This document shows, in pieces, positions 2,143 to 48,995 of a stretch of 63,526 nucleotides of DNA; the stretch's first letter is position 1; each line of letters starts with the position of its first letter. The stretch covers positions 1-63,526 of IMG/VR virus record IMGVR_UViG_3300044612_000880; one strand, 5' to 3'. Source of the stretch: a virus. A program made the position numbers and the translations under genes. Below the pieces are notes generated by a model. The model made no database searches. It had not been told where the DNA came from and was given only the letters and a program-made list of their open reading frames with translations.

Positions 2143-3081
2143 TTAATCATTGAATAACTCCCTTTCATCTATTTTTTCTAAAAACTTTTCAGCCCAATAC
2201 TCATGCCAAAGAACTCCATCGTGCCCATCTCTTCTTATTAAATCATATTTTTCAAGTTTTAGGTCTGGTCTTTTCTTTGATATGAAAGATTCGATCTCAT
2301 TACTTTCATTTAACGGAAAGAACTCATTGCTTTTAATCAATGAATAGTTATCTGATTCTGCATAGTCCCAAGAAGACCAAACTAATTTAACGTTATTGGC
2401 TTTGCAGTATTCTGAAAAAAGTTTCCATCCTATAACAAAATCTAAAAACTTTTCTCTATGTTCTTTAACTGACAACTTTTGCTCTTCAAACCTTGAAGGC
2501 TCAGGAACTTCTTCAGAGTCATGCTTTTTACGCCAATCATTGATTGCATCATAGTCAGTATTTACTGGGTATCTTTGCACATATACCCAATTATTTCTTT
2601 CTTCAGACCATAGGTAGAACCTTCCTATGTTTGGCATAAGTACAAAGAAGTGTGTTGGCATTCCGTATTTTTTTGTGTATAGCATAAACTGTGAGATAAT
2701 TTTTTGCCAGCCATAGCCAGATCTTGCTAAAGTATAAAAGCCACCAACATCAAGCCCACGATCTTTAAGTTGCTTATGAAGAATATTAGTCCATACTGTA
2801 TCAATAGATCCGCCAACACCTTCAGTTTGTGAGCAACCACTAAAAAGAATATGATACTTACCATGATCATTAGAAAACTCATCAGACCTAAAACCATCTT
2901 GATTGTAGTTATAGGATATAGATCCATCATCCCCACCGCTAAATATATTTTCAATAGGAAGTTTTGTAAATGTTCTTTTATCTTTTGGCATACCATGCAT
3001 CCATGTTAGGTCAAACTCATCAAAGAATACATCAGACACATTTGCAGAGTCATTTAACTTTATGTCGTACTTACCAGCCAT
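2143..3081 (-). CDS. SGNH/GDSL hydrolase-like protein
   Basis: This 312-residue protein shows NQDGFRSDEF followed by a strand ending in GCSQTEG, with Ser84 as candidate nucleophile. A C-terminal segment near DGVLWHEYWA offers a candidate catalytic Asp/His pair. This layout matches SGNH hydrolases and O-acyl (de)acetylases. It is a distant paralog of the protein at 7966-8868 (same DGFRS and GCSxTxG blocks). The ATG lies only 1 nt downstream of the methyltransferase stop, so the two form an operon. Known SGNH enzymes act on esters of glycans; the substrate here is unknown. Confidence 0.55.
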   Translation of the reverse strand: MAGKYDIKLNDSANVSDVFFDEFDLTWMHGMPKDKRTFTKLPIENIFSGGDDGSISYNYNQDGFRSDEFSNDHGKYHILFSGCSQTEGVGGSIDTVWTNILHKQLKDRGLDVGGFYTLARSGYGWQKIISQFMLYTKKYGMPTHFFVLMPNIGRFYLWSEERNNWVYVQRYPVNTDYDAINDWRKKHDSEEVPEPSRFEEQKLSVKEHREKFLDFVIGWKLFSEYCKANNVKLVWSSWDYAESDNYSLIKSNEFFPLNESNEIESFISKKRPDLKLEKYDLIRRDGHDGVLWHEYWAEKFLEKIDERELFND

Positions 3082-3082: not shown

Positions 3083-3778
3083 TTATTGCTCCCTTTTTAA
3101 ATATATATCATAAAATCCAAGATTGTGTAGTGCTAATGCAGAGACTGACCAATTTTTATTTTTATATAAGAATTCATTAACAGTCTGATATGTACCGTAT
3201 GGACCTTCTTCTATGATACCATCAAAAATTAGATAGTCATTTAATCCAATGATTCCACCAATAGGAACAAGATTAGCAGAAAGATTTAAAACTTTTCTTG
3301 TCTGATCACGCTTATTAGAAATATCTATGTATATATAGTCATATTCTTTATTTAGTCCTGGAAGAATATTTATTGCATTTCCTTTAATTGTTGAAACATT
3401 CTTATATTTACTAAATAGTTCTTTTATATATGGCTCATGCGTCTCTGGAGTGTACTTCATTTCGTGCTTAACAGGCTCACACTTGCACTCTCCAAATTTT
3501 CTCCAAGACCAGCACTTAAGGTCAAGATCATAAAAGTCAAGAAGGTCTATACTTTGTGGATTAGCATTTTCTGCTACAAATTCAGAGTAGTATCCCCAGG
3601 CAACACCTATCTCAAGGTACCTCATATTTTTAGGAAGATGCTTGGTATATTCTTCTCTTGAAGCATAGACTTTTGTATTATTTAGTTGAGACTGATCTAA
3701 CTTGTGTCCATCTTCAATTTGATTAAACGGTAGTTCTGGAAATGAATCAATGAATGATGGAACTATTTCTCTTGCCAT
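3083..3778 (-). CDS. Class I SAM-dependent methyltransferase-like protein
   Basis: This 231-residue protein contains the SAM-binding motif I MRYLEIGVAWGYYSE (near residue 51), an acidic strand end DLLDFYD, YDYIYIDIS and GGIIGLNDY. These are typical of Methyltransf_24-like enzymes found in sugar and surface-polymer clusters. A minus-strand TATAAT at about 3800-3805 is followed by a short leader with a weak AGGG. It is the first gene of a two-gene operon with the SGNH protein. Confidence 0.65.
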   Translation of the reverse strand: MAREIVPSFIDSFPELPFNQIEDGHKLDQSQLNNTKVYASREEYTKHLPKNMRYLEIGVAWGYYSEFVAENANPQSIDLLDFYDLDLKCWSWRKFGECKCEPVKHEMKYTPETHEPYIKELFSKYKNVSTIKGNAINILPGLNKEYDYIYIDISNKRDQTRKVLNLSANLVPIGGIIGLNDYLIFDGIIEEGPYGTYQTVNEFLYKNKNWSVSALALHNLGFYDIYLKREQ

Positions 3779-3829
3779 TTAGACCCTATCTGTAGAATAT
3801 AATTATACACCATATGCTACAATTATCTT

Positions 3830-4594
3830 ATGAATAAAAAAGGAACCTTTATAATAGGCTGTAATCATTTAACAGATCCAACAGATACCCCACAGAAAGT
3901 CCTGAACTATCTAAAGTCTGGAGAATTTGTTTGGGTAGAGCACGAAGACCAACTAATTAAAGATATGTTGGCCCTTGGTATAGAAGATAATATTAACTGT
4001 GATGTTTTTCTTGACTACACACTTGCAGAACAATTATCAAAAACAAAAGAAATTCTTGATGCTGGAAAAGATGTAATGCTATTATTACACATGGGATATC
4101 CAGGAATTGCAGATCCAGGCTGCGGACTCATAAGAGATGTTAGAGCACAAGGATATGATGTTTCTATTATTGCTGGCCCAAGTGCTGCACCAATGTCACT
4201 TGCTTTATCTGCACTGGAGGCTGGTGAGGCTGGTTATCTATTAAAAGAATTTTTTAGAAATGATGCAACTCGTGCATTTATTGAAGAAGGAATAGTCGTT
4301 GAGAATGATGCAGCCCAAAAAGAAATTGAAACCTTGCAAAGAATAAAAGATATTCCAGAACTTCTTGTCCTGTTACACTATAGATATAATATATTAGAAC
4401 TGCTAAAAGAAATGTTAGAAATTTTTAATGAGGATCGAGAGGCGTGTTTAGTAATAAATGGTGGGTTGCATAATCAAAATGTTGTTCACGGAAAGTATAG
4501 TCAAATAATTAAACAACTTGAGGAAGACCTTGTTGAACATCTTTTTGATGAGCATGCAGTTGTAACCGTTGTATCTAAAGGTAAACAAAATTAA
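3830..4594 (+). CDS. Tetrapyrrole-methylase-fold (RsmI-like) protein
   Basis: The segment LLLHMGYPGIADPGCGLIRD and then IIAGPSAAPMSLALSAL match the SAM-binding and GPSA blocks of the TP-methylase superfamily. RsmI, which 2'-O-methylates C1402 of 16S rRNA, is the closest type I can name. The N-terminus (FIIGCNHLTDPTDTPQKVL) also fits the first strand and loop. The last 90 residues do not look like RsmI, so the substrate is uncertain. TACAAT lies exactly 6 nt before the ATG, so the transcript should be leaderless. The end overlaps the oxygenase gene by 26 nt. Confidence 0.6.
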   Translation: MNKKGTFIIGCNHLTDPTDTPQKVLNYLKSGEFVWVEHEDQLIKDMLALGIEDNINCDVFLDYTLAEQLSKTKEILDAGKDVMLLLHMGYPGIADPGCGLIRDVRAQGYDVSIIAGPSAAPMSLALSALEAGEAGYLLKEFFRNDATRAFIEEGIVVENDAAQKEIETLQRIKDIPELLVLLHYRYNILELLKEMLEIFNEDREACLVINGGLHNQNVVHGKYSQIIKQLEEDLVEHLFDEHAVVTVVSKGKQN

Positions 4595-5156
4595 CATAGA
4601 GGTATCTTCTGATTTTATTAATAAAGAGGACTGCAAAAGTTTTATTGATTTCATAGATACAAATCAAAAGATATTTGTTGGTCCATTAGGAAGGACTGTT
4701 TTGCAGTTTGGGTTTGATGATCATAGAAAAAACTATAAAGATATTGTTTCTGGAATTGATAAGATAAATAATCTTTCAATTATATATTTTAATAAAATAA
4801 TAAAAGAACTAAAAAAAATTTACAATGATGATAAAGAACTCTATATTGCTTCTTTTTGGCTATCAAAAGGAATGCCTGGCTCAAGGGTAAGGTTACACTC
4901 TGATCAAGAAGATGGACATAACTCACATTTTAAATATAGCACAATAGCATATTTTAACTCAGTTAATTCTGGTAATGAAATAATATTTCCAAACATAGGA
5001 TATAAGTATTCTCCTGTAGAAGGAGACATGCTTTCTTGGATTTCAGGGGATAAAGACTCAATACATGAGGTACCATCAGTAACAGAGACAAGATACTCTA
5101 TGCCAATATGGGTTACAGACAATCCAAAGTACAAACTGAACTATGAAATGATATAA
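4569..5156 (+). CDS. Fe(II)/2-oxoglutarate dioxygenase, prolyl-4-hydroxylase-like
   Basis: The double-stranded beta-helix signature is visible: His110-x-Asp112 (VRLHSDQ), GNEIIFP (135-141), PVEGDMLSW (149-157), distal His166 (SIHEVPS) and Arg175 for 2-oxoglutarate. Such enzymes hydroxylate proline or other side chains using O2. The start is TTG at 4569, because an in-frame stop lies directly upstream; it overlaps the preceding gene by 26 nt. The next gene, a GT60-type glycosyltransferase, begins 7 nt after this stop, with its promoter inside the end of this gene. Confidence 0.75.
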   Translation: MYLKVNKINIEVSSDFINKEDCKSFIDFIDTNQKIFVGPLGRTVLQFGFDDHRKNYKDIVSGIDKINNLSIIYFNKIIKELKKIYNDDKELYIASFWLSKGMPGSRVRLHSDQEDGHNSHFKYSTIAYFNSVNSGNEIIFPNIGYKYSPVEGDMLSWISGDKDSIHEVPSVTETRYSMPIWVTDNPKYKLNYEMI

Positions 5157-5163
5157 TTAAATT

Positions 5164-6276
5164 ATGGAATATATAGAAGATCCTTACATTGTGGATACAC
5201 GAGAAGTACCAAAGTTAGAGTCTCTATCAGTGGTTCCAGAAACAATATATATATCAATAGCATCATACGATGATCCATATCTTATTAGAACTATAAAATC
5301 TATTATAGATAATGCTGACAAGCCAGAAAATATATACCTTGGCATTGCTCTTCAATATGAAAAGATAGAAATACCTGATGTATCATTCATAGATCCACAA
5401 AAGATAATAAAGATTTATTGTGCAGCAGAAAATCGTCCAGGAACTGTAAGAATAAGACATGTCCTTAGAAAACTTATGACGTTCCAAGAATATTTTTTAC
5501 AAATAGACTCACACACACATTTTTGTAAGGGCTGGGACACAAAACTAAAAAATGATTTGAGTGTTCTTAAGAATGAATCAAAGACTGGTAAAGTTATCAT
5601 ATCACAACAAACAAACCAATATCCTGGTGATGCTTTAGTATATAAAGATGGAATACCTTTTGTATGGAATGCAAGGTTTACAGAAAAGAAATCTGTTCTT
5701 CCAGATGAAGAAAGACGGTGGGAGTTGCTTGATAACATGAATCAAGTAGCAAAAGAGTATCCGCTATCTGATGCCAAACTTATTGATAATAGATATATAA
5801 GGACGGGTTTTGTCGGAGGTAATTTTATATTTGCAAGAAAAGAATATATAGAGGATACTTTGTTTGATTCCAGATCTCAATTTGTTTCTGAAGAAATGAT
5901 AGATAGTCTATACACTTATATGTCAGGATGGGATGTCTATGCAAACATAGTTGAGCATTACCTTGGTCATGACAATTTTGATTATAATGAAACAGTATAT
6001 AATAATAAGTACCCAGTAAAATATTTTAGAGGAAAGTTTTGTGGCAACGATACTATTGAAAGACAGCATGCTGATAGGTTTTTTTGTTTAGATGAAAAGA
6101 ATAGATACTCTATGCCTCATGCAACAAGATCTGCAGAAGAGTATTTTAATGAGTTTGATATGCCAGATTTATTTAAAAAATCAAAAGCGTGGTACGAAAA
6201 AAGAATTATAGATAATCAGTCTTATCCTGTATTAGATAAAAATAACTATGATTTTAATTGGAAAGAGTTAAACTAA
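5164..6276 (+). CDS. GT60-type GlcNAc transferase (Skp1 GnT1-like)
   Basis: This 370-residue protein carries the signature blocks of the PF11397/GT60 family: ISIASYDDP (31-38), NRPGTVRIR (90-98), YFLQIDSH (110-117, the DxH-type metal/sugar site) and GWD (123-125). In Dictyostelium the family enzyme GnT1 adds GlcNAc to hydroxyproline of Skp1, after a prolyl hydroxylase has acted. The immediately upstream gene is a prolyl-hydroxylase-like oxygenase, which matches that order of reactions. TATAAT is 6 nt before the ATG. The acceptor here is unknown. Confidence 0.8.
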   Translation: MEYIEDPYIVDTREVPKLESLSVVPETIYISIASYDDPYLIRTIKSIIDNADKPENIYLGIALQYEKIEIPDVSFIDPQKIIKIYCAAENRPGTVRIRHVLRKLMTFQEYFLQIDSHTHFCKGWDTKLKNDLSVLKNESKTGKVIISQQTNQYPGDALVYKDGIPFVWNARFTEKKSVLPDEERRWELLDNMNQVAKEYPLSDAKLIDNRYIRTGFVGGNFIFARKEYIEDTLFDSRSQFVSEEMIDSLYTYMSGWDVYANIVEHYLGHDNFDYNETVYNNKYPVKYFRGKFCGNDTIERQHADRFFCLDEKNRYSMPHATRSAEEYFNEFDMPDLFKKSKAWYEKRIIDNQSYPVLDKNNYDFNWKELN

Positions 6277-6816
6277 GTTAGCACACATAGAGTATAGTTC
6301 TTCATATGCTTTATAGTTTTTTGATAAGTCATATGAGTCTAAGAATTCTTTTACTAAATCATAATGCTTTGTTTTTTGACTACTGACTATGTGCTTTTGA
6401 TCTTTTGTATCGGAGATATTGTTAACATACTCGGCATTTGTTTTTTCTATGTTAAACTTTTTGCTAAGTTTGTCAATGATTTTATCCATGTGGCTATTTA
6501 AAACGGTATAGTCAAAGACTTCTGAAGCATTTCTAATAGCATACTGATGAAACACAAGGTGATCAATAGAGGCCCATTTAGCATAAGAGTCTAAGGTCTG
6601 AGGCTTTCTTGTTGGGTTAAGGTCTTCATGATACAGTTCCATGGCTATCCATGAGGCCATAGCCTCTTTAGGATCTCTGGCTATAGTTATCATCTTGTCA
6701 TAAGTATTTATTTGGCAATCATGTGTCCAGTCAAATTCAACATGCAACTCTTGTAATATGTGATCACGCAATAGATGTTGCCCAGTTCTGGGATAGGTAG
6801 CAAGTAAAAGTTTCAT
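6268..6816 (-). CDS. Sulfotransferase-like protein
   Basis: The protein starts MKLLLATYPRTGQHLLRD, a 5'-phosphosulfate loop like that of sulfotransferases (YPRSGxxxLR). Near residues 42-56 there is MITIARDPKEAMASW, matching the 3'-phosphate site (RDPxxxxxS). A longer in-frame ATG at 6834 exists, but it lies inside the promoter TGGTATACT. I therefore start at 6816, 8 nt after the -10. The 3' end overlaps the convergent GT60 gene by 9 nt. Likely PAPS-dependent transfer to a glycan or protein; the substrate is unknown. Confidence 0.7.
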   Translation of the reverse strand: MKLLLATYPRTGQHLLRDHILQELHVEFDWTHDCQINTYDKMITIARDPKEAMASWIAMELYHEDLNPTRKPQTLDSYAKWASIDHLVFHQYAIRNASEVFDYTVLNSHMDKIIDKLSKKFNIEKTNAEYVNNISDTKDQKHIVSSQKTKHYDLVKEFLDSYDLSKNYKAYEELYSMCANLV

Positions 6817-6834
6817 ATAATTTAAGTATACCAT

Positions 6835-6910
6835 TGGTACCCCTGGCAGGAATCGAACCTGCGACGCTTGGCTTAGAAGTCCAACGTTCTGTCCACTGAA
6901 CTACAGAGGT
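6835..6910 (-). tRNA. tRNA-Arg (TCT)
   Basis: Acceptor ACCTCTG/CAGGGGT, T arm with GTTCGATTC, anticodon loop CTTCTAA giving TCT, and an encoded CCA end. It decodes AGA, a common codon in this AT-rich genome. First of five clustered tRNAs. Confidence 0.93.
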
Positions 6911-6911
6911 A

Positions 6912-6985
6912 TGGAGCGAGTGACCAGAATCGAACTGGCACAATCAACTTGGAAGGATGATGCACTACCATTATGCAACACTCGC
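6912..6985 (-). tRNA. tRNA-Gly (TCC)
   Basis: Acceptor GCGAGTG/CACTCGC, anticodon loop CTTCCAA giving TCC, T loop GTTCGATTC, and encoded CCA. It decodes GGA, heavily used in the late genes. Confidence 0.92.
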
Positions 6986-6986
6986 T

Positions 6987-7062
6987 TGGCTGGGGATGCA
7001 GGCATCGATCCTGCGACATCCGAATTAACAGTTCGGCACTCTACCATCTGAGTTAATCCCCA
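6987..7062 (-). tRNA. tRNA-Asn (GTT)
   Basis: Acceptor TGGGGAT/ATCCCCA, discriminator G, anticodon loop CTGTTAA giving GTT, and encoded CCA. Confidence 0.92.
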
Positions 7063-7066
7063 TTAG

Positions 7067-7140
7067 TACATCTGGAAGGACTTGAACCTTCGGCTCTCTG
7101 CATATAAGGCAGGTACTCTAACCAACTGAGTTACAGATGT
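7067..7140 (-). tRNA. tRNA-Ile (TAT), reads AUA
   Basis: Acceptor ACATCTG/CAGATGT and anticodon loop CTTATAT giving TAT. No CCA is encoded. Most bacteria read AUA with a modified CAT tRNA, so a TAT anticodon is uncommon and fits the high AUA use of the cargo genes. Confidence 0.85.
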
Positions 7141-7232: not shown

Positions 7233-7976
7233 TTACCCTAATACGCCAAAGATGTCAACATAATAATTCTTTGTTAACAAAGATGCTGATCTACTAAATG
7301 CTGACCAAGATGGAACTATAACTGCTGAGTTAAGCATAAAAAGAAATGACTCATACGTACCCATGTTATTTATTATCTTAACATTAGGAAAGTTATCAGG
7401 ATTAATTGATGTTAAGGGATATTCTCCATTGCTATCAGCAACAAGATGTTCTTGTTTCCAGTAATCATCTTGTTTGTCATATGGTTTAAACTTATTTGCA
7501 TTAACTGGAGAATCAGTCAATATAAATATCTCTGGGTTTTCTAATGAAAAAAGTTTTGAGATATTATCTATATTGTCTACAAGTTCTACATATCTTTCTT
7601 CATCTATCCAGCGAGGATTGGTTGGTATAACATTTCCTCTTCTAATATGGATAACAACTCTGTTCTCTTTAACTGTTTCAATATTTAAAAAATTAAAATC
7701 AGTAAGCAGTGAACAGTTTATTTCATTTGTACTAATCTCTTTAATCTTAGAGGTTACGTCTTTAGGATTTGTGTGTAATATAAGATTATTAAACTGTTCT
7801 ATAACTTTATTCTTTTCATCTTCTGTATTTATATTATCAGATTCGTGTATCAAAAAGTCTTTAATAGGTTCATTGTAATATTCATTACCTGTAGATTCAG
7901 CATATGACTTTATAATAATTTTTCTATATAACTGTGCCCCAATTCCATCAGGTATATATTCTTCTTTAACTATCAT
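7233..7976 (-). CDS. Fucosyltransferase-like glycosyltransferase (GDP-sugar type)
   Basis: This 247-residue protein contains VVIHIRRGN (107-115), the HxRRGD-type motif of GT11 and related alpha-1,2/1,6-fucosyltransferases. It also has a C-terminal GTYESFLFMLNSAVIVPSWS block typical of the acceptor side of the GT-B fold, and the N-terminal loop GIGAQLYR. These enzymes use GDP-fucose or other GDP-L-sugars. It overlaps the upstream SGNH gene by 11 nt and has a GGAG ribosome site, so the pair is co-translated. Confidence 0.65.
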   Translation of the reverse strand: MIVKEEYIPDGIGAQLYRKIIIKSYAESTGNEYYNEPIKDFLIHESDNINTEDEKNKVIEQFNNLILHTNPKDVTSKIKEISTNEINCSLLTDFNFLNIETVKENRVVIHIRRGNVIPTNPRWIDEERYVELVDNIDNISKLFSLENPEIFILTDSPVNANKFKPYDKQDDYWKQEHLVADSNGEYPLTSINPDNFPNVKIINNMGTYESFLFMLNSAVIVPSWSAFSRSASLLTKNYYVDIFGVLG

Positions 7977-8868
7977 TTTTTATATTCTCCATTTCTTTGT
8001 AAAAAAAGTCTGCCCAATGTGCATGTCTGTGTGATCCAGGATGAGGATGAAATGGAGGATTTATGTTTCCATGATCGTATCCAAAATCAAATACATCCTG
8101 ATTGTTGTCCCTAACCTGACTATGACAATCTATTTTAGAATCTATAATTGCGTAATGAGTTCTTAAATTATCTATCTTGTCAACTGCAAAGTTAAACTCA
8201 AAATCATTTGGAAACAGTTCTCTGGTTGGATCTTTTTTATAAAACATAAAGTCTTTAGCCAAACAATCTTCAAGTTCATCAGGAATATTATCAGACCATG
8301 TTGTCCAGATTAGTTTTATATTATTAAAATAACAAAACTGCTCTAACATTTTAATGTGATCAAGGTTAGACCAATTAATCCACTGAGAAGGAACTATCTT
8401 GTCCCATTCAAATGGCGCTGTGCCCTTAGTCTTTATGTTTTCTTTTAACCAAAAAAGATTTTCCATATTGTTTAAGTTTTTATTAATAAAATAAAATCTT
8501 TGAAAGTCTGGGAAGTTACACAAAAGATATTCTGGAAGATAGTTATATTTTTTTATAAATGAAAAGAACTGAGATATATTTTTCATTATTGAAGATCCAT
8601 GATCACCAAGATTACCAACCATCTTGTCTTTGCCCAGTAAAGACTGCAACTGTGATGGCCAATTAAAGCCTTCTGGTAGCCCTGTGCCGAACGTAATAGA
8701 GCATCCCAGGGTAATTATCGGGGGCTTAGTTAAAAAGTCTACAGATCTAAAACCATCTTTGTTAACAGTATAACTATACTTATCACTTTTATAATCATGA
8801 GGTGGCTGCATAAGCCCATCTATTAATTTTGATGGATTAAGATCTATATTAAAAGCATCATAGGACAT
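7966..8868 (-). CDS. SGNH/GDSL hydrolase-like protein (second copy)
   Basis: This 300-residue protein has NKDGFRSVDF and LGCSITFGTG, with Ser57 as candidate nucleophile. A His-rich C-terminal block, PHPGSHRHAHWADF, could hold the catalytic Asp/His pair. It shares block order with the protein at 2143-3081. It precedes the fucosyltransferase-like gene in an operon, consistent with (de)acylation of the same glycan. The ATG follows an AT-rich leader without a strong ribosome site. Confidence 0.5.
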   Translation of the reverse strand: MSYDAFNIDLNPSKLIDGLMQPPHDYKSDKYSYTVNKDGFRSVDFLTKPPIITLGCSITFGTGLPEGFNWPSQLQSLLGKDKMVGNLGDHGSSIMKNISQFFSFIKKYNYLPEYLLCNFPDFQRFYFINKNLNNMENLFWLKENIKTKGTAPFEWDKIVPSQWINWSNLDHIKMLEQFCYFNNIKLIWTTWSDNIPDELEDCLAKDFMFYKKDPTRELFPNDFEFNFAVDKIDNLRTHYAIIDSKIDCHSQVRDNNQDVFDFGYDHGNINPPFHPHPGSHRHAHWADFFYKEMENIKNDS

Positions 8869-9254: not shown

Positions 9255-9923
9255 ATGAAAATTCTTATTAACTCATATCCCAATAGTGGAGCCTGGACTC
9301 TTGCAGATATGTGTGTAAGGATTACGAGAGATTCTCAAACAAACAACTATCATCATATGCCAGAGGGTTCTGATTGGATAATCTGGAAGCATGAGGCAAT
9401 AATGTTAATAGCAGATTTTGGAAATGAAGTTACCCAGTACTTTATATTAAGAGATCCAATAGAGTCAATAGCCCACAATGTAGATAGATGGTTTTCTGGT
9501 CATGTTGGAAGAGTGATTGAGGGAAAGTCAATAGTAAAAGAAGGTCAAATTAAAACAAATAGCGAACTAAGTCTTCGTGAAAAAGAATTTATTGATAATC
9601 AGATAATGATTTATATGTCATACCTAAACTGTCTTGATTTAAATAATAAAAATCTTTTACTTCTTTACTCTGAAATGGAAGAAAACCCTTTAGATGTTGC
9701 AATGAGAATATTGAAAAATTCTGGAGTGTCCAGTGATAAAATGAAATATTCCCACATACACAATAAACTTGAAGAACATGTAAAAACAGATGCGTATCAA
9801 TCAGTTGTTGACTATATATACTCACATAAAGATATAAAGTATGTATATAAAAAGTATAACTATTTTATTGATCAGAAGAGTTCTTCTTCATTTCTTCAAC
9901 CATCTCATTTAAAGATGTCCTAA
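9255..9923 (+). CDS. Sulfotransferase-like protein (second)
   Basis: The start MKILINSYPNSGAWTLAD has the SYPxSGxxxL phosphosulfate loop, and FILRDPIESIAHN supplies the RDP...S 3'-phosphate motif. The rest (222 aa) is helical and fits the short alpha/beta P-loop sulfotransferase fold. TATAAT is 6 nt before the ATG, so the mRNA should be leaderless. Its 3' end overlaps the convergent early gene by 59 nt. Confidence 0.68.
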   Translation: MKILINSYPNSGAWTLADMCVRITRDSQTNNYHHMPEGSDWIIWKHEAIMLIADFGNEVTQYFILRDPIESIAHNVDRWFSGHVGRVIEGKSIVKEGQIKTNSELSLREKEFIDNQIMIYMSYLNCLDLNNKNLLLLYSEMEENPLDVAMRILKNSGVSSDKMKYSHIHNKLEEHVKTDAYQSVVDYIYSHKDIKYVYKKYNYFIDQKSSSSFLQPSHLKMS

Positions 9924-21962: not shown

Positions 21963-22249
21963 TAGTCTTCATCCTCGTATTCGTCTACTGGGTCAATAAA
22001 CCAAGATAGGTGGTGTTGGTCTACAATAGCGTGGGCAGGTGCGTGGCTCATACCCTTATAGAATACGCCTTCGGGCATAGCAATAAATCTATCATAGTCC
22101 TCATCATAGTATGCGTCAATAGCATCAATACAAGGTTGTACCATAGAAAGTGGTACGGGTGGGTAGTGATTACCCTGTAAGTGATAGGCTAATTGTGTTT
22201 CTAAATCTAAAACGCTATCTGCTAATCCAATTGCTGTTACGCTTCCCAT
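21962..22249 (-). CDS. Hypothetical phage protein (95 aa)
   Basis: MGSVTAIGLADSVLDLETQL with AYHLQGNHYPPVPLSMV, a block I associate with early proteins of actinophages; then His-rich KGMSHAPAHAIVDQHHLSW. Function unknown. Confidence 0.65.
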   Translation of the reverse strand: MGSVTAIGLADSVLDLETQLAYHLQGNHYPPVPLSMVQPCIDAIDAYYDEDYDRFIAMPEGVFYKGMSHAPAHAIVDQHHLSWFIDPVDEYEDED

Positions 22250-22252
22250 TAT

Positions 22253-22417
22253 TTATACCTCTACGCTTTCGTTGTTGTTAGTTAATTGATTTATGTCTGC
22301 GACATAGACATTATCTTTATTTATTCCATACTTTAATTGGAATTGAAATGTATCAATAGCCTCATCGTAGGATTCAGCCTCGACATTTATGAAAGTATTA
22401 AACTCAAAAATTTCCAT
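22253..22417 (-). CDS. Small hypothetical protein (54 aa)
   Basis: MEIFEFNTFINVEAESYDEA, beta-helix pattern typical of small ferredoxin-like folds. ATG overlaps the upstream TAA. Function unknown. Confidence 0.6.
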   Translation of the reverse strand: MEIFEFNTFINVEAESYDEAIDTFQFQLKYGINKDNVYVADINQLTNNNESVEV

Positions 22418-22638
22418 TACTTACTCACTACCCTTCTGCCTTCACGATAGAAAGTCTTAGTGTGTAATTTTCCTGAAGGCTCTGAGAAATTAACTGTTGA
22501 GTATTCATCAGCAAATCCCCAATCCTCAAAACTATTAAACACGCTAACTGCGGATACTGCGTCTGAGTAACGCCCTGTCCAATGTACGGGCTTACTGTCA
22601 TACGATACTGTTACTGCGTATAGGTATTCATTTTCCAT
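22417..22638 (-). CDS. Hypothetical protein (73 aa)
   Basis: MENEYLYAVTVSYDSKPVHW; beta-rich, basic C-terminus (FYREGRRVVSK). Coupled to both neighbours. Function unknown. Confidence 0.6.
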   Translation of the reverse strand: MENEYLYAVTVSYDSKPVHWTGRYSDAVSAVSVFNSFEDWGFADEYSTVNFSEPSGKLHTKTFYREGRRVVSK

Positions 22639-22781
22639 TAGTCGTTCTCCTTAGTTGTAAATAGTGCGCCTTCATTAAGTAATCCAACCTCTAACTTAAA
22701 TAACTCATCTGGCGTGGCTTGCTCCAAGTCTACCCAACCTGCGCCTTCGTTGTCAATTCTAAAAATCTCAATGTATCCCAT
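22638..22781 (-). CDS. Small hypothetical protein (47 aa)
   Basis: MGYIEIFRIDNEGAGWVDLE, acidic. Shares stop/start bases with both neighbours (TAATG). Function unknown. Confidence 0.6.
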   Translation of the reverse strand: MGYIEIFRIDNEGAGWVDLEQATPDELFKLEVGLLNEGALFTTKEND

Positions 22782-22948
22782 TAGTGTTGTTCCTCGCAAT
22801 CATTAGAGTAATCAAATTCGCAAAAGTAGCAACCCATACTTTCGCCGTGTGCTTTACAAATGTATTTAAATTGTGACTCATCACAACAAAAACGCATTTC
22901 ATCTTTAATGAGATAAAACTCATTTTGGTCTATTATTACTGAGGTCAT
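22781..22948 (-). CDS. Cys-rich micro-protein (55 aa)
   Basis: MTSVIIDQNEFYLIKDEMRF, then CCDESQ, YICKAHGESMGCYFCEF: five or six Cys with His, likely zinc. First gene behind promoter 22982-23003, ribosome site AGAAGG. Confidence 0.6.
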   Translation of the reverse strand: MTSVIIDQNEFYLIKDEMRFCCDESQFKYICKAHGESMGCYFCEFDYSNDCEEQH

Positions 22949-22981
22949 TTCTGCCTTCTTTCTTTATCTTATTACTATGTA

Positions 22982-23003
22982 ATCCTATCATCTTCGGCTG
23001 ACA
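22982..23003 (-). promoter_or_regulatory. Early promoter with TGTCAG box (7)
   Basis: Minus strand: TGTCAG (22998-23003), 10 nt, TAGGAT (22982-22987). Drives the 21.6-22.9 kb block. Confidence 0.62.
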
Positions 23004-23052
23004 TTTATCTACCTACTGGCGAGTAATTCCAAATAGTAAGACGCTCAACCTA

Positions 23053-23068
23053 TGTGATAAAACTCACA
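23053..23068. promoter_or_regulatory. CRP/GlxR-like palindrome (4)
   Basis: TGTGA-TAAAAC-TCACA, perfect arms. CGTGTCG follows at about 23079, a TGTGGATAA box at 23107-23115, and CGACACGCTAGG just beyond. Confidence 0.6.
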
Positions 23069-23156
23069 AAATTTCGGGCGTGTCGTAAATAACTTCTTAA
23101 ATGACTTGTGGATAACCTGTGGACGACACGCTAGGTAAATTGCCTAGAAAAAATTT

Positions 23157-23194
23157 GAGCAGTTTTAGATCTTGCTCAGGATTTTTATTTATTA
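23157..23194 (-). ncRNA. Conserved hairpin (copy 7) after the 23192 gene
   Basis: CCTGAGCA, 11-nt loop, TGCTC (23157-23177), then AAATTTTTT on the minus strand, the only copy with a good U-tract. The stop-codon stem is weak here (ATTTA/TAAAT). Confidence 0.55.
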
Positions 23195-23383: not shown

Positions 23384-23472
23384 TTGTGAGTACACTCGCT
23401 TTCTGATTCGTGTCCAAATTCATCTACCAATTCTTCATAGATTTCATCAATGTAGTCTAAATAGTCGCTCAT
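23380..23472 (-). CDS. Acidic micro-protein (30 aa)
   Basis: MSDYLDYIDEIYEELVDEFG; 11 acidic residues, one amphipathic helix. ATGA overlap with the next gene and a 1-nt overlap with the previous one. Function unknown. Confidence 0.5.
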   Translation of the reverse strand: MSDYLDYIDEIYEELVDEFGHESESECTHK

Positions 23473-23678: not shown

Positions 23679-23696
23679 TTATTTATTTCCTATTCT

Positions 23697-24169: not shown

Positions 24170-24200
24170 TTATTCTGACCTTTCTTTAAGTGATAATACT

Positions 24201-24222: not shown

Positions 24223-24250
24223 TTTTTGCCACTTATTTGCTAAGGCTCAT

Positions 24251-29228: not shown

Positions 29229-29954
29229 GTGGTTTCTAAAAATATGGATTTTCCAATAAGCAAGAAAGCGGCATACGCATCTCAAGTTGAAAACCAGCAA
29301 AGTATAGTTACGGACAACTCAGTCGGATATATTCCAGTTCCTGGCCCTCAAGGACCAAGAGGTCTTCAAGGAGAAACTGGACCTCAAGGCCCTAAAGGTG
29401 AACCTGGACAAGATGGACAAAAAGGACAAAAGGGAGATACTGGACAAAAAGGACAAGATGGAAAAAGTTCTTTACCAAATTACAATCAGCCAGCAGGTTG
29501 GGCAAAGTACGTATCTGATAACCTGATACCAACAAAAACTGGAGCGTCTCAGGGAGAAGATGGTTGGGTATCCTTAACTCTTGGAAATGTTTCACGTGAA
29601 ACAGTTGAAAAATATCTTCCATCAAATTCTCAGGGTCTATATGGAAAAGAAACAAAAAGAATTAACCTTAAAGGATTAGAACTTGGCACCCAACTACAAA
29701 TAACTTATGATTTTGAAATCACTACATATTCTTCAAATACAGAAGTATGGGTTAGATCATTTTTCCCTGAAAGCAAGTCTGAAGTTATATCTTTTGTAGC
29801 ATCTTTAAAATATCAATATTCGTATGACCTCTCTGTCACTCAAACCCTATTTTTAAATTCAGATGCTGATAAGATTTCTGGAATTAGTCCACAGGTTAGA
29901 ACCGATATGGACGCAATAGTATTGTTAAAAAGTATAGCAGTTTCAGTCAGGTAA
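29229..29954 (+). CDS. Collagen-like tail fibre protein
   Basis: GTG start at 29229 behind GGAGG. Residues about 38-81 contain 14 or so Gly-X-Y triplets (GPQGPRGLQGETGPQGPKGE onward), expected to form a triple helix. The remaining 160 residues form a beta-rich C-terminal domain, likely trimeric. Some Y positions carry Pro, a potential hydroxylation target. Probably a receptor-binding fibre. Confidence 0.78.
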   Translation: MVSKNMDFPISKKAAYASQVENQQSIVTDNSVGYIPVPGPQGPRGLQGETGPQGPKGEPGQDGQKGQKGDTGQKGQDGKSSLPNYNQPAGWAKYVSDNLIPTKTGASQGEDGWVSLTLGNVSRETVEKYLPSNSQGLYGKETKRINLKGLELGTQLQITYDFEITTYSSNTEVWVRSFFPESKSEVISFVASLKYQYSYDLSVTQTLFLNSDADKISGISPQVRTDMDAIVLLKSIAVSVR

Positions 29955-32078: not shown

Positions 32079-34382
32079 ATGGGTTGGATTAGCAAATGGT
32101 CTGCTTCTAAAGGAATGGTTTCAGTACCAAATATCCTTGAAATATCAAAAACAGAAGCCGAAGAATTAATCCAAAGCAATGGTCTAATAGTAGGAACTGC
32201 ATCTACAGTAACTCAAGAAGATAATACAAAGACAAACACTGTTATAACCCAAGCAGCGCCAGCAGGAACATTGGTTGATTATGAAAGCCCAATAGATTTT
32301 ACATATAGACTATTTTCTTTTACTCCGTTTAGTGTATTTACATTTACACCAGTTACACCATTTTCATTCACGCCAGTTACATTTTCAGTGTTTTCATTTG
32401 TACCATTTGGTGTGTTTACTTTTACTCCATACACACCAGCACTAAGTATTTCAAACGTATCGGGCACTGCAACTGGCACAACAACTGCAACAATTAGTTG
32501 GACATCTTCAGGACAAGTATCATTCCATTTAATGGTTGTTCCAAGATTTACAGATAACGAGCCAGGTTTTAGTTTATATGGAACAACAGCAACAAGTGTT
32601 ACCGCAACTGGTCTTACTCCAGATAATATGCACGACATAACTGTTTTTGTATATTCTGGAGCAAATCAAACTGGATCTTCTCAATTAGGACAGGGTACAG
32701 TTAAAACAAATGCCCCACCAGCCGTAGTATTAGATAAAACAGTTCCAAATGTTGTAGGAATGACTTCTGCTGCAGCACAAACTGCACTTCAAACAGCAGG
32801 ACTAGTTTCTGGAAGTGTTACAACAGGAACAACTACAAGCACTGCTGCTAATAGTGGCAAAGTAGAAAGTCAATCTCCAGCATCAGGAACTGCAGTTGCT
32901 TCAGGAACAAATGTAAATTTAACTATGTGGAATTACGTTGCTGCAACATGTACGGTAGCAACAACATACACTTATAATTGGGGAGAATGGGATACATGCT
33001 CTAATGGAACACAGTCTAGATGGGCAACAGATAGAGATTATTCTACAGTTAATGCAGACTGTTCTATCAGCACTGGAACTCAACAATTTTATGTAGTAGG
33101 AAATTCAAGTCCTTGGAGACAGCAAAGAGATTGTGTAGTAACTTGTACTGCTGGAACCTCATATGTTTATAATTGGGACGACTGGGGAACCTGTGTTGGA
33201 TCAATAAGAAAAAGATATGCTCAAAATAGAACTGTAAATATTATTTATTCAGATTGTTCTGTAAATGATTACCTTGAACCATTTTATCAAGCAGGAAGGT
33301 CAAGTCCTTGGGAAGAAAGCGAGGCTTGTACCGTAGCATTTACATTTACGCCATTTTCAGTATTTACATTTACGCCATTTAGTGTCTTTTCATTTACACC
33401 ACTTGCAAAGCCAAATTGTCAGTCTCCAAATGTTCAAACTAAAAATACTACCGCTACATGTGCAGATTTAGGAAGGACCTATCTTGGAGGACCAAACGAA
33501 TATCAAATAGGCGTAGGATATTCATGTTGTGGAGAACTTATAAATACGTTCTCATTTACTCCTGTATTCACATTTACTCCAACATTCTCATTTACTCCAG
33601 TTGCCCCAACATATCCAGCGCTTCTTTCTGGATTCCATTTATGTGCACAGGGGGATGTTCCAAACCCAGCAAGCCCATGCTACCAAGCAGATGTTGGCGT
33701 TAAGTGTGTAGATGGAGGAGCATCAGGTGCTTCTTGTACAGATCCAAATGCCTTCTCATTTACTCCAACCGCACCAGCATTCTCATTTACTCCAACAGCA
33801 GCCTTTACCTTTACTCCAACAGCAGCCTTTACCTTTACTCCAACATTCTCTGTCTTCGGATTCTCACCAGCACGTGGCCCAGGATACTACTCTCTTGGAC
33901 CTAAGACTAAAATTAGAATGGCTGATGGCAGCCTAAAGGAAGCACAAGATATTGTTGTAGGAGATGAACTATTATCTGTAAATTCAGGTGAAATCTCTCA
34001 AACAGATGCAACAACATCTTCACTATTGACTTGGTCAACAATTGACGATGTCATATTTGAAAATGTTATAACAACTGTTAATAGTGTGACTAGACACACA
34101 ACAGACAAGACATACAGAATTAACGGAGATGCATTTAGCCCTAACCACGTAATAATGGTTAAGCGTAATGAAGAAATATTGTTTGTATGGTCAAGAGATG
34201 TTATTTCAACAGATTTAATTAGAGACTACCTTGGAAACTGGGAATCAATAACCGAACTAGAAATGCTTGAGTTCCCAGTTGAAGTAATATCTATAAACTG
34301 TGAGCCATACGACATATACTTTACAGAACACGCCTTGACACATGATGGCAAGCAGTGGTATGATATTTCTAATACAGATTAG
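32079..34382 (+). CDS. Adhesin with PASTA, FnIII, Phe-rich repeats and C-terminal Hint domain
   Basis: This 767-residue protein begins with a PASTA-like unit (VPNILEISKTEAEELIQSNG). Short FTFTP/FSFTP repeats follow near 80-125, then a fibronectin-like domain (ATISWTS) and a second PASTA (VPNVVGMTSAAAQTALQTAG). Two Cys-rich YNWGEWDTC-type modules come next, and more Phe repeats lie at about 425-600. From Ser605, SLGPKTKIRMADG starts a Hint domain with FSPNHVIMV and PYDIYFTEHALTHD. PASTA binds peptidoglycan or adhesin surfaces. Hint usually self-cleaves, but Ser replaces Cys here, so cleavage is uncertain. Confidence 0.75.
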   Translation: MGWISKWSASKGMVSVPNILEISKTEAEELIQSNGLIVGTASTVTQEDNTKTNTVITQAAPAGTLVDYESPIDFTYRLFSFTPFSVFTFTPVTPFSFTPVTFSVFSFVPFGVFTFTPYTPALSISNVSGTATGTTTATISWTSSGQVSFHLMVVPRFTDNEPGFSLYGTTATSVTATGLTPDNMHDITVFVYSGANQTGSSQLGQGTVKTNAPPAVVLDKTVPNVVGMTSAAAQTALQTAGLVSGSVTTGTTTSTAANSGKVESQSPASGTAVASGTNVNLTMWNYVAATCTVATTYTYNWGEWDTCSNGTQSRWATDRDYSTVNADCSISTGTQQFYVVGNSSPWRQQRDCVVTCTAGTSYVYNWDDWGTCVGSIRKRYAQNRTVNIIYSDCSVNDYLEPFYQAGRSSPWEESEACTVAFTFTPFSVFTFTPFSVFSFTPLAKPNCQSPNVQTKNTTATCADLGRTYLGGPNEYQIGVGYSCCGELINTFSFTPVFTFTPTFSFTPVAPTYPALLSGFHLCAQGDVPNPASPCYQADVGVKCVDGGASGASCTDPNAFSFTPTAPAFSFTPTAAFTFTPTAAFTFTPTFSVFGFSPARGPGYYSLGPKTKIRMADGSLKEAQDIVVGDELLSVNSGEISQTDATTSSLLTWSTIDDVIFENVITTVNSVTRHTTDKTYRINGDAFSPNHVIMVKRNEEILFVWSRDVISTDLIRDYLGNWESITELEMLEFPVEVISINCEPYDIYFTEHALTHDGKQWYDISNTD
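32316..33870 (+). repeat. Phe-rich FxF(T/S)P coding repeats, set 1
   Basis: Clusters at about 32316-32440, 33345-33405, 33548-33610 and 33753-33870 encode FSFTP/FTFTP with spacers such as FSV and VAP. The last cluster includes an exact short tandem of the AAFTFTPT unit. Confidence 0.7.
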
Positions 34383-43271: not shown

Positions 43272-44840
43272 ATGCCAATTCGTAAAGGTGGTAAAGCAGG
43301 AAAGCAGTCAAAGGCTGTTCCAAGATATCAGTCGATTAGCCCAACAGAACCAACAATTGTTTCTGTAGTTAACTCTGGTTTTACATATTTTAGTGGTCAG
43401 TTTACAATTACATTTACACCCCCAACCTACGGTGCAACCCCAACATCTTACACCATTACAGCAACCAGTGCATCTTATGGAACTAAAACATTTGCTGGGG
43501 TAACATCTTCACCATTTATAGCAACTGGACTTCGTGGTGGTACAAACTACACTTGGAAAATAAAAGCAGTTCACGCATCTTATGGAGACTCTTCTGAACT
43601 TGTTGGTGGATCATTTGAGTCTATTACAGTTCCAGATGCTCCAACAGCAGTAACAGCATCTTCACCAACTGGAGCAGCCTATGATAGCGTATCTTGGTTA
43701 GCCCCTGCAGATAATGGCGGAGCAGCAATAACAAACTATGAAATTACATCATCAGATGGAAAGACAGTTTATACTTCTGGAACATCAATAAACGTAAACC
43801 AAGAAGCAGGAACATCACAGACATATCGTGTTCGTGCCTATAACTCAAAGGGATGGTCAGAACTTTCTACCGCTTCTGCTTCTGTTCAGACATTCTCGTT
43901 TACTCCATTCGGAGTATTCTCGTTTACTCCATTTGGAGTGTTCTCGTTTACACCAGTATTCTCGTTTACACCGTTTGGCGTATTCTCATTTGCTCCATTC
44001 GGAGTATTCTCGTTTACACCGTTTGGCGTATTCTCATTTGCTCCAGTGTTCTCGTTTACTCCATTCGGAGTGTTTTCGTTTGCCCCATTCGGAGTATTCT
44101 CATTTATTCCATTTAGCGTATTTACGTTTGCACCTGTAGCACCATTTTCAGTGTTTACATTTACTCCTTTCTACGTATTTGGATTCTCACCATTCGGTGT
44201 CTTCGGATTCTCACCATTCTCACCATTCTCAGTATTTGGATTCTCACCATTCGGTGTCTTTGGATTCTCACCATTCGGTGTCTTTGGATTCTCACCATTC
44301 GGTGTCTTTGGATTCTCACCAGCACGTGGCCCAGGATACTACTCTCTTGGACCTAAGACTAAGGTCAGAATGTCTGACGGAACTCTTAAAGAAGCACAAG
44401 ACCTTAATGTTGGCGATCAACTAAAGTCTATATCTCTTCCAGGACTTTCAGATACACAGACAGCAACAATCTACGATTGGTCTAGTGAGTTTGATCTGTC
44501 TTCAGCAGAAGAAGTTGTAACAACAATTAACAAGATAGATACACATGCTACAGATACAACAATTAGACTAAATGGAGATGCATTCTCTCCAAGCCACTTA
44601 ATTCTTGTACAAAGAGAAGGAGTTTCAACATTTGAATGGGCTAAAAATATAGTTCAAACAGATATGGTTTGGGATTACTCTCTAGGAGCATGGGCACCTG
44701 TTACTGAACTTGAAACTCTTGAGTTCCCAGTAAATGTTATTACAGTTAACTGTGAGCCTTATGACATATTCTTCACCGAGCACTCGCTTACACATGATGG
44801 TAAAGACTGGTACGACCAGACTCAAACACCACAAGCGTAG
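43272..44840 (+). CDS. FnIII adhesin with Phe/FG-rich repeats and C-terminal Hint domain
   Basis: This 522-residue protein has two fibronectin type III domains (about 20-205). A strikingly regular block of 8-residue units, FSFTPFGV then FGFSPFGV, runs from about 209 to 350. From Ser358 a Hint domain begins with SLGPKTKVRMSDG and ends PYDIFFTEHSLTHDG. Ser again replaces the nucleophilic Cys. It shares the fused Hint module with the 32079 protein. Likely a surface fibre; self-processing is uncertain. Confidence 0.75.
   Translation: MPIRKGGKAGKQSKAVPRYQSISPTEPTIVSVVNSGFTYFSGQFTITFTPPTYGATPTSYTITATSASYGTKTFAGVTSSPFIATGLRGGTNYTWKIKAVHASYGDSSELVGGSFESITVPDAPTAVTASSPTGAAYDSVSWLAPADNGGAAITNYEITSSDGKTVYTSGTSINVNQEAGTSQTYRVRAYNSKGWSELSTASASVQTFSFTPFGVFSFTPFGVFSFTPVFSFTPFGVFSFAPFGVFSFTPFGVFSFAPVFSFTPFGVFSFAPFGVFSFIPFSVFTFAPVAPFSVFTFTPFYVFGFSPFGVFGFSPFSPFSVFGFSPFGVFGFSPFGVFGFSPFGVFGFSPARGPGYYSLGPKTKVRMSDGTLKEAQDLNVGDQLKSISLPGLSDTQTATIYDWSSEFDLSSAEEVVTTINKIDTHATDTTIRLNGDAFSPSHLILVQREGVSTFEWAKNIVQTDMVWDYSLGAWAPVTELETLEFPVNVITVNCEPYDIFFTEHSLTHDGKDWYDQTQTPQA
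43896..44320 (+). repeat. Phe-rich 24-nt coding repeats, set 2
   Basis: About 16 near-copies of a 24-nt unit encode FSFTPFGV/FGFSPFGV. The first half uses FSFTP and FSFAP, the second FGFSP. The C-terminal part yields repeated FG dipeptides. Confidence 0.8.
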
Positions 44841-46434: not shown

Positions 46435-48465
46435 ATGTCAGATTTTTTTAGTTTTAAACTTCCAGAGGACTTCGTAGAAAAGTACAAGAGCCAAGAAAGC
46501 CCATTCGGGTTTAAGGATGCAGCAGAAAATTCACTTGGAGAAATTACTTTTATTCGTACGTATTCTCGCATGAAAGAAGATGGAACTAAGGAAAGATGGC
46601 ACGAAGTTTGTCGTCGTGTAATCGAGGGTATGTATTCAGTTCAAAAGAACCATGCTAAAGAAAACCGTCTACCATGGAATGACTACAAGGCTCAGAAGTC
46701 TGCACAAGAAGCATTCCAAAGAATGTTTGAACTAAAGTGGACACCACCAGGAAGAGGTATGTGGACTTTTGGTACACCAATGACAATGGAGAAGAAGAAC
46801 TCAGCAGCACTCCAAAACTGTGCAATGGTTTCTACAAAGGACCTTGATAAGAATGATCCAGGAGCCTTGTTTGCTTGGGTAATGGATGCTTTGATGCTTG
46901 GTATCGGAGTAGGGTTTGATACAGTAGGACAGGAAAAGAATTTCTTAATCTCTGCTCCAACAGAACCAGAACAGGTGTTCGAAATTCCAGACACTCGTGA
47001 AGGCTGGGTTGAATCAGTAAGACTTCTTCTTAATTCTTACCTAAGACCAAATCAGTCTATTCAAAAGTTTAACTACGACCTTATCAGACCTCTAGGAGCA
47101 CCCATTAAAGGCTTTGGAGGGGTCGCCAGCGGTCCAGCACCCCTTATTCAACTACATACACAGGTAGATCGTGTAATTGGCGGTAGAGTAGGAGAAACCT
47201 TAGATTCTCGTGCTATCACAGACATAATTAACCTTATTGGTACATGTGTTGTTTCTGGCAATGTTCGTCGTTCTGCAACTCTTGCTTTAGGAGCAGCAGG
47301 AGACGAAGATTTTATTAATCTTAAAAATGCTGAAGTTTTTCCAGAGCGTAACTCTTTTGATCCAGAAAATCCAGGTTGGGCTTGGATGTCAAATAACTCA
47401 ATTTCTGCAACAGTTGGAATGGAATATGAAAAATATACTGATCTAATTGTTAACAATGGAGAGCCAGGATTTATTTGGCTTGATGTTGCTCGTAATTATG
47501 GTCGTCTTGCAGATCCCGCAGATGGAAAAGACTATCGTGTTATGGGCTTTAATCCTTGTGCGGAGCAGCCATTAGAGTCATATGAATTATGTACACTTGT
47601 AGAAGTGCACTTGAATCGTCATGAATCTAAGGAGGACTTCCTCAAGACATTAAAGTTTGCTTACCTATATGGCAAGACTGTCACTCTTCTTCCAACACAC
47701 TGGCCACAAACAAACGGTATCATGCAACGTAATCGTCGTATTGGTACATCCCTTACTGGTATTGCATCATTTGCAGATCAAAAAGGTTTGCCAGCAGTTC
47801 GTGAATGGATGGATGAAGGGTATAACAAGATCCGTCACTATGATCACCAGTATTCAGAATGGCTATGTGTTCGTGAATCAATTCGTGTAACAACAGTTAA
47901 GCCATCAGGATCAGTATCAATTCTTTCTGGTGCAACTCCTGGAGTTCACTGGGGTCCTGGAGGAGAATTCTTCTTACGTGCAGTCCGTTTTGGTGATACA
48001 GATCCAATGCTGCATTTATTCAAGGCAGCAAATTATAACGTTGAAAAAGACGTAGTCTCAGCAAATACATCTGTAGTTTATTTCCCAATTAAGTCAGGAC
48101 AAAAACGTTCTGAAAAGGATGTAACATTATTTGAAAAGATTGCCCTTGCTGCAACTGCTCAGAAGTACTGGTCAGACAATGGAGTTTCTGTAACACTATC
48201 TTTTGACAAGGAAACAGAATCAAAGCACGTTGCTCCAGCACTACATATGTACGAAGGGCAATTGAAGGCTGTTTCGTTCCTACCAATGGGAAATCATACA
48301 TATCCTCAGCAACCATATACTCAGATTACTGAAGAGGAGTATAATGGTTATATTGGCAAATTGAAGCACATTGACTTTGGAGCAATTTACGACGGTGTAG
48401 ATAATCTTGAGGCTCAGGGTGAAGCATATTGCACAACAGACTATTGCGAAATTAAGGTGAAATAA
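46435..48465 (+). CDS. nrdJ: Adenosylcobalamin-dependent ribonucleoside-triphosphate reductase
   Basis: This 676-residue protein matches class II RTPR: Cys129 (NCAMVS), NPCAEQ with Cys375 as thiyl site and Glu377, Cys386 (ELCTLVEV), VKPSGSVSILSG, GVHWGPGGEF and C-terminal shuttle Cys666/Cys671. It reduces ribonucleotides to deoxyribonucleotides with B12, giving dNTPs for phage replication independently of oxygen. It is shorter than the 739-residue Lactobacillus enzyme. The next gene overlaps by 1 nt (TAATG). Confidence 0.93.
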   Translation: MSDFFSFKLPEDFVEKYKSQESPFGFKDAAENSLGEITFIRTYSRMKEDGTKERWHEVCRRVIEGMYSVQKNHAKENRLPWNDYKAQKSAQEAFQRMFELKWTPPGRGMWTFGTPMTMEKKNSAALQNCAMVSTKDLDKNDPGALFAWVMDALMLGIGVGFDTVGQEKNFLISAPTEPEQVFEIPDTREGWVESVRLLLNSYLRPNQSIQKFNYDLIRPLGAPIKGFGGVASGPAPLIQLHTQVDRVIGGRVGETLDSRAITDIINLIGTCVVSGNVRRSATLALGAAGDEDFINLKNAEVFPERNSFDPENPGWAWMSNNSISATVGMEYEKYTDLIVNNGEPGFIWLDVARNYGRLADPADGKDYRVMGFNPCAEQPLESYELCTLVEVHLNRHESKEDFLKTLKFAYLYGKTVTLLPTHWPQTNGIMQRNRRIGTSLTGIASFADQKGLPAVREWMDEGYNKIRHYDHQYSEWLCVRESIRVTTVKPSGSVSILSGATPGVHWGPGGEFFLRAVRFGDTDPMLHLFKAANYNVEKDVVSANTSVVYFPIKSGQKRSEKDVTLFEKIALAATAQKYWSDNGVSVTLSFDKETESKHVAPALHMYEGQLKAVSFLPMGNHTYPQQPYTQITEEEYNGYIGKLKHIDFGAIYDGVDNLEAQGEAYCTTDYCEIKVK

Positions 48466-48995
48466 TGGAAGATTTAAAATCAAAAGTAATATATGTAAAA
48501 GAGTTTATGCCAAAGAATTTGGCAATGTCTATTACAGAATACTCAAAAGCACATACACTTCTTTTTACTGAGTATGGAAATGGCGAAAAAGAGTTTACAG
48601 TACATACATATCACGAAATACAAAGAAATGATCAGTCTTCTTTAGATGTTTTGCAAGAGTATGCTAAAAAGGTTTATGATTTTGTTCTTGAAAATTATGA
48701 AGGGCCATTTCAGCCTTTCTTAGATGAAAAAACACATATTGCAAAGTTTACTCCAGGTGAGGGCATGCACGAGCATTATGATATGAATAGACCAAATGAT
48801 ATTGCAACAATTCTTTATCTTAATGACGACTATACTGGTGGAGATATATATTTCCCAGCATTAGGTATATCTCATAAGCCTGAGCCAGGAGATCTTCTTT
48901 GCTTCCCAGACAATCCAGACTATGTGCACGGAGTTCGGGGAATTCAAGATGGAATACGATACACAACACCACGTTGGTTTACCCGCATTGTATGA
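48465..48995 (+). CDS. Prolyl-4-hydroxylase-like Fe(II)/2OG dioxygenase
   Basis: Typical blocks: MHEHYDMNR (H-x-D type with His/Tyr-Asp), TGGDIYFP, KPEPGDLLCFP, YVHGVRGIQDGIRY with distal His and Arg. This is a full-length phage P4H (176 aa). It is translationally coupled to the reductase. A substrate on virion proteins is possible. Confidence 0.8.
   Translation: MEDLKSKVIYVKEFMPKNLAMSITEYSKAHTLLFTEYGNGEKEFTVHTYHEIQRNDQSSLDVLQEYAKKVYDFVLENYEGPFQPFLDEKTHIAKFTPGEGMHEHYDMNRPNDIATILYLNDDYTGGDIYFPALGISHKPEPGDLLCFPDNPDYVHGVRGIQDGIRYTTPRWFTRIV

Follow-up and report, generated by a model that had tools for sequence, protein, structure and literature searches.

A recurrent pairing of prolyl-hydroxylase-like oxygenase and GT60 glycosyltransferase genes, present in a probable actinophage, suggests hydroxylation-coupled protein glycosylation in bacteria and their viruses

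We identified two adjacent genes, encoding a prolyl-hydroxylase-like 2OG-Fe(II) oxygenase and a glycosyltransferase of family GT60, in a 63,526-nucleotide stretch of viral DNA (IMG/VR record IMGVR_UViG_3300044612_000880; hereafter the window). The best reading of this pair, to which we assign a probability of about 0.5, is two-step hydroxylation and glycosylation of protein by a compact cassette that a large actinophage carries. In the first step, the oxygenase would hydroxylate an amino-acid side chain of a protein, with proline as the likeliest residue. In the second, the GT60 enzyme would attach a sugar, N-acetylglucosamine being the best candidate, to a hydroxyl group of a protein; the simplest choice would be the one newly made. 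The two enzymes would then act sequentially on one residue of a virion fibre or of a host protein. Beyond the window, the link between 2OG oxygenases or prolyl hydroxylases and GT60 is general and is seen as recurrent adjacency, as gene pairs in SAR86 bacteria and as a fusion protein.

The window, probably of freshwater origin and with a G+C content of 37%, is probably a fragment of a large actinophage. We infer this host from the resemblance of its portal protein (47%) and maturation protease (~56% over half its length) to those of large Streptomyces siphoviruses, together with the WhiB-like genes on contigs of its relatives, the near relative L005 included. An earlier note on this DNA had reported the two genes at 4569–6276 with 7 nt between the oxygenase stop and the GT60 start, and both the positions and the gap were borne out (Table 1). 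The N-terminus of the oxygenase is without a nearby ATG, and its best start is the TTG at 4569, which falls within the last codons of the TP_methylase-fold gene. In comparison with L004, dN/dS is 0.13 in the oxygenase gene and 0.085 in the GT60 gene, a sign of purifying selection on both genes, which thus encode selected proteins.

Table 1. Features of the window and, where a record is named, of related contigs
Feature	Position	Strand	Basis
SGNH-like protein	2143..3081	-	by eye; no Pfam match; mutual phmmer match with 7966-8868 (homologous)
Methyltransferase (Methyltransf_24, just under cut-off)	3083..3778	-	Pfam
TP_methylase-fold protein (PF00590), upstream, overlaps oxygenase gene	3830..4594	+	Pfam
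2OG-Fe(II) oxygenase, prolyl-hydroxylase-like (PHD/P4H type), 195 aa, TTG start	4569..5156	+	HxD/H/R triad, profile, AF2 model
AATTAA, 5' copy, left edge of segment missing from L005	4589..4594	+	comparison with L005
AATTAA, 3' copy, right edge of segment missing from L005	5155..5160	+	comparison with L005
GT60 (PF11397) glycosyltransferase, 370 aa	5164..6276	+	Pfam, DxH site, AF2 model
Sulfotransferase-like protein	6268..6834	-	PF00685 21.6 bits, cut-off 22
NodZ-like protein, possible fucosyltransferase	7233..7976	-	PF05830 22.2 bits, cut-off 28.3
SGNH-like protein	7966..8868	-	by eye; mutual phmmer match with 2143-3081
Tail-fibre-like protein, collagen-like GXY stretch 29343-29468 (candidate substrate only)	29229..29954	+	
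PASTA protein, FSFTP repeats (candidate substrate only)	32079..34382	+	
fn3 protein, FSFTP/PFGVF repeats (candidate substrate only)	43272..44840	+	
Second 2OG oxygenase of the window (PF13640), after ribonucleotide reductase gene	48465..48995	+	counterpart in L005 record
GT60-like/2OG/2OG cassette	L005 record 22189-24329; L110 record 3181-5324; L029 record 4995-7132		
GT60-like/2OG/2OG cassette	L200:2388-4560; L026:4065-5993		

The oxygenase contains the residues H110-S-D112, H166 and R175 that the earlier note had picked out, and all are invariant in 32 aligned sequences. Assignment to a 2OG-FeII family by HMM search, which the note had proposed, succeeded for the relatives, 30 of the 32 sequences matching PF13640 at E<0.01, whereas the best Pfam match of the window protein alone is PF03171 at 19.7 bits, below the cut-off of 23. 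Using the 32-sequence profile to search the PDB, we obtained prolyl 3-hydroxylase 1 (P3H1) as the best match (5.5e-8), followed by B. anthracis P4H (3e-7), P. putida PPHD (8.6e-5), PBCV-1 P4H (2.5e-4), another P4H and PHD2 (2e-3). The note had considered that the enzyme might align only with non-protein hydroxylases; instead, protein prolyl hydroxylases align first. The AlphaFold (AF2) model (pLDDT 92) has a clear 2OG fold, the double-stranded beta-helix, and its nearest fold is again P3H1 (Z 18.7, 2.5 Å over 175 residues), with PPHD (Z 18.2), PBCV-1 vCPH (17.8), PHD2 (17.2) and algal P4H (17.2) further down (Foldseek was also used). The non-prolyl 2OG enzymes PolD and SnoN reach Z ~16, so the margin by which prolyl hydroxylases are the nearest fold is small. 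The spacing H-x8-R-Y-x4-W is found as in Trichoplax PHD in the alignment, and its four named residues (H, R, Y, W) do not vary across the family. By profile and predicted fold, the protein thus appears to be a 2OG enzyme closest to prolyl hydroxylases, a nearness that is not proof of a prolyl substrate. No relative of it was found among GenBank phages. Its PHROG 2297 label, “DNA endonuclease”, was rejected as a misannotation, the profile matches identifying the family as 2OG oxygenases.

The second protein was confirmed as a member of GT60, as the earlier note had proposed, by an HMM search with PF11397 (88.1 bits, cut-off 21, E=1e-24). It contains the motifs D115-S-H117 and G123-W124-D125 as well as E243; an alignment of 29 sequences shows no variation at R98, D115, H117, W124, D125 or E243. 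The AF2 model (pLDDT 84.6) adopts the expected GT-A fold, so that neither the fold nor the DxH site, whose absence would have spoken against the assignment, is missing. All of the top 29 structure entries matching this model are polypeptide GalNAc-transferases of the GT27 type (Z 18.6–20.9), and the next fold follows at 15.4. GT60 is described as a family of polypeptide alpha-GlcNAc-transferases (PMC8724618). On the predicted structures, the oxygenase and the GT60 enzyme both group with protein-modifying families. A GT60 profile gave no match to PDB sequences, and GenBank phages yielded a single distant GT60 (XacN1). Elsewhere, tandem overlapping GT60 pairs occur in phages (L020:6025-8545 and L022:6013-8530), and some GT60 proteins of Pseudomonadota carry a C-terminal methyltransferase domain (L284, L293).

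To place the pair in a wider context, we compared loci collected by GT60 searches only, counting genes within 150 nt as neighbours. A 2OG gene lies directly beside GT60 in 12 of 25 lineages, as against 15 of the 215 other genes (7%) of the same loci, with a Fisher p of 7e-7 that is indicative only because lineages sharing a clade are not independent of one another. Side-by-side genes are found in L026, L028, L029, L030 and, in the order GT60-2OG-GT60, in L019; in the L182 group the two genes overlap. A P4H-type gene also adjoins GT60 at L025:2768-4345, on a contig where the remaining genes resemble those of eukaryotic nucleocytoplasmic viruses. The pair is further carried by the SAR86 bacterium L018. 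GT60 is present in 46 of the 107 genomes of its family, and every one of the 21 GT60 loci examined from the family (L264–L283 and L309) has an adjacent 2OG gene in divergent orientation; the partner that was checked is a true P4H (E ~5e-33 to an algal enzyme). Among other GT60 loci of Pseudomonadota, one 875-residue bacterial protein (L306:490-3114, minus strand) combines 2OG-FeII_Oxy_3, PF11397 and a TTL/ATP-grasp-type domain, and its oxygenase part is a P4H (9e-33). A GT60 search of 198 genomes of the same order yielded no second fusion. On the GT60 tree, the association with 2OG requires 10 changes, at least 7 of which are forced by well-supported branches, so the association is recurrent and has been gained or lost repeatedly. 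Phages also hold a large GT60 clade without a 2OG neighbour. The recurrence, the SAR86 loci and the fusion together suggest that hydroxylation-coupled protein glycosylation, known in amoebae and parasites, also occurs in bacteria and their viruses. Our literature search, covering open-access papers only, turned up no description of a P4H–GT60 pair from prokaryotes or phages, which is no proof of novelty.

A related arrangement, a three-gene cassette of GT60-like, 2OG and 2OG genes, was observed in five phage contigs, all from actinophages (Table 1); its GT60-like member seems to be without the DxH site.

The pair in the window itself is less tightly bound. In the close relative L005, the neighbourhood and a 90%-identical GT60 are kept and the oxygenase is missing; the missing segment measures 566 bp and is cleanly bounded by the two AATTAA copies. 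The nearest relatives of the window oxygenase (35–40% identity) are mostly without an adjacent GT60, and a GT60 occurs anywhere in 6 of their 30 records, which are mostly fragments. The clean absence and the lone relatives indicate a movable oxygenase unit, either recruited or lost, and a GT60 that does not strictly depend on it. Since the nearer relatives are unpaired, we also dropped the idea of a conserved orthologous pair in the window, L029 and L030. Four further 2OG genes are present in the L005 genome, including two within the three-gene cassette, so lack of one oxygenase need not entail lack of the chemistry. The window pair looks recruited rather than obligate. Within this phage group the oxygenase was gained or lost as a unit, so a GT60 enzyme can also function in its absence, presumably modifying either Ser/Thr or a residue that a different phage oxygenase hydroxylates. 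The two-step system proposed in the earlier note is therefore favoured by the general P4H–GT60 link and weakened by the state of L005 and of the closest oxygenase relatives; coupling of this exact pair is plausible in the light of that link.

The same observations bear on the possibility that the two enzymes act independently, GT60 on Ser/Thr of a virion protein, like GT60 of the T. cruzi type and GT27, and the oxygenase on another protein, their adjacency stemming from joint expression within a plastic decoration region. This would account for a GT60 retained without the oxygenase in L005, for window-type oxygenases that mostly stand alone, and for the many GT60s without a 2OG neighbour in phages where 2OG genes are abundant. 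The enrichment of 2OG genes beside GT60 relative to other genes of the same loci, the invariable pairing in the SAR86-family loci examined and the existence of a fusion protein argue against it, and we regard it as doubtful, if the most serious competitor of the two-step reading.

Several genes around the pair could instead belong to a pathway for a complex cell-surface or virion glycan, in which the oxygenase would act on a sugar or lipid while GT60 and the sulfo-, methyl-, carbamoyl- and SGNH enzymes add groups. Sulfotransferase-like, NodZ-like, methyltransferase and SGNH-like genes lie nearby, and carbamoyltransferases occur in related clusters. The fucosyl- and sulfotransferase-like neighbours described in the earlier note proved weak, as one match each falls under its Pfam cut-off (Table 1) and 9255–9923, its other “sulfotransferase”, has no relevant Pfam match. 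The profile and fold of the oxygenase, closest to protein prolyl hydroxylases, the fold of the glycosyltransferase, closest to polypeptide transferases, and the description of GT60 as a polypeptide GlcNAc-transferase family (PMC8724618) make a glycan pathway improbable. Comparable neighbours were seen elsewhere: a protein similar to the methyltransferase lies near the L029 pair, and NodU-type carbamoyltransferase genes lie near GT60 in the unrelated phages L006, L019, L028 and L015, three of which also have SGNH-like genes there. In L012, L013, L024 and L006, a protein family without a Pfam match, which we take to be possibly DUF6065, is encoded beside or near GT60, and in L012 and L013 its gene sits within the tail-gene region.

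For other phages, oxygenase–glycosyltransferase pairs with DNA as their substrate have been suggested. Modification of that kind, with a TET/JBP-like oxygenase hydroxylating a base that the glycosyltransferase then glycosylates, would also suit the frequent proposal that phage glycosyltransferases protect DNA (e.g. PMC10202952); it is very unlikely here, as TET reached only 0.64 in the profile search that gave 5e-8 for prolyl hydroxylases, and the folds are closest to prolyl hydroxylases and polypeptide transferases. That two accessory genes with no relation to each other came to lie side by side by chance in a hypervariable stretch would fit the clean presence or absence of the oxygenase at the AATTAA repeat, and is just as hard to credit given the adjacency enrichment, the SAR86 loci, the fusion and purifying selection on both genes.

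Among characterized systems, the proposed cassette has the same two enzyme classes as PhyA/Gnt1 of Dictyostelium and Toxoplasma, in which a PHD-type prolyl 4-hydroxylase and then a polypeptide alpha-GlcNAc-transferase modify Skp1; the class match rests on Pfam for GT60 and on profile, fold and motif spacing for the oxygenase. Skp1 is a eukaryotic protein, and we know of no Skp1 substrate to be expected in the host. Unlike the Skp1 pathway, the genes described here are viral or bacterial and are linked or fused, and the window oxygenase is distant from its structural relatives (15–20% identity in structure alignments). For the specific Skp1 pathway and its fucosylation step, to which the earlier note had pointed, we found no supporting evidence, the nearby fucosyltransferase candidate being only weakly NodZ-like. 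Protists also fuse enzymes of the Skp1 pathway (PMC8724618). By analogy, the pair resembles the first two steps of that pathway, as well as lysyl hydroxylase LH3, and we do not claim membership of the pathway. Mimivirus L230 likewise brings a hydroxylase and a glycosyltransferase, joined in one polypeptide, to collagen lysine. LH3, which is among the lower fold matches of the GT60 model (Z 14.9), hydroxylates collagen lysine and glycosylates the new hydroxyl with one polypeptide (PMC6082870). Both differ from the window in using lysine rather than proline and another glycosyltransferase family, and the window has separate genes. The folds closest to that of the oxygenase include P. putida PPHD and the viral collagen prolyl hydroxylase of PBCV-1; the part of the literature cited gives EF-Tu as the known PPHD substrate (PMC7864055) and, unlike the case of the window, mentions no glycosyltransferase linked to either enzyme. 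The mycobacteriophages Che8 (gp110), Corndog (gp38) and Myrna use their own glycosyltransferases to modify capsid and tail proteins (Freeman et al. 2023, via PMC12363180), and in the section cited neither GT60 nor an oxygenase is named.

As to the target, a host protein such as EF-Tu is as open a choice as a virion fibre, for which the collagen-like protein and the FSFTP-repeat proteins of the window are candidates (Table 1). The PASTA and fn3 proteins have a common C-terminal region that, judged by eye, resembles Hint/intein domains, and L026:109-771 is another tail-region protein rich in FSFTP/PFGVF repeats. In whole-contig searches, FSFTP proteins turned up in four contigs (L005, L026, L030 and L184), each of which has a GT60 belonging to the wider clade of the window enzyme, and two 2OG-only contigs yielded none; in L182, which has the pair, no FSFTP-type repeat was found. 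From this whole-contig look and a dedicated scan, the numbers are too small and the contigs too partial to decide on co-occurrence with GT60. A 71.9-kb contig with an identical FSFTP protein ends, by its coordinates, before the expected GT60 position.

In the literature surveyed, GlcNAc on hydroxyproline belongs to a protist system tied to oxygen sensing. We tentatively propose that hydroxyproline-linked protein glycosylation is also prokaryotic and viral, carried out by paired P4H and GT60 enzymes of phages, of SAR86 and of a contig resembling nucleocytoplasmic viruses, and also by a fusion protein, with the protist Skp1 pathway as one branch, and that the phage of the window decorates its fibres or a host protein in this way. 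The main interest of our finding lies in the general P4H–GT60 link uncovered here. If true, this chemistry would be older or wider than protists, extending to phages, a dominant marine bacterial lineage and a bacterial fusion, and the linked pairs and the fusion would supply tractable models. It would also give a concrete, testable role to some of the many unassigned 2OG oxygenases of aquatic phages, and proteins, not DNA, would become the probable substrates of phage glycosyltransferases, for which DNA protection is the usual assumption.
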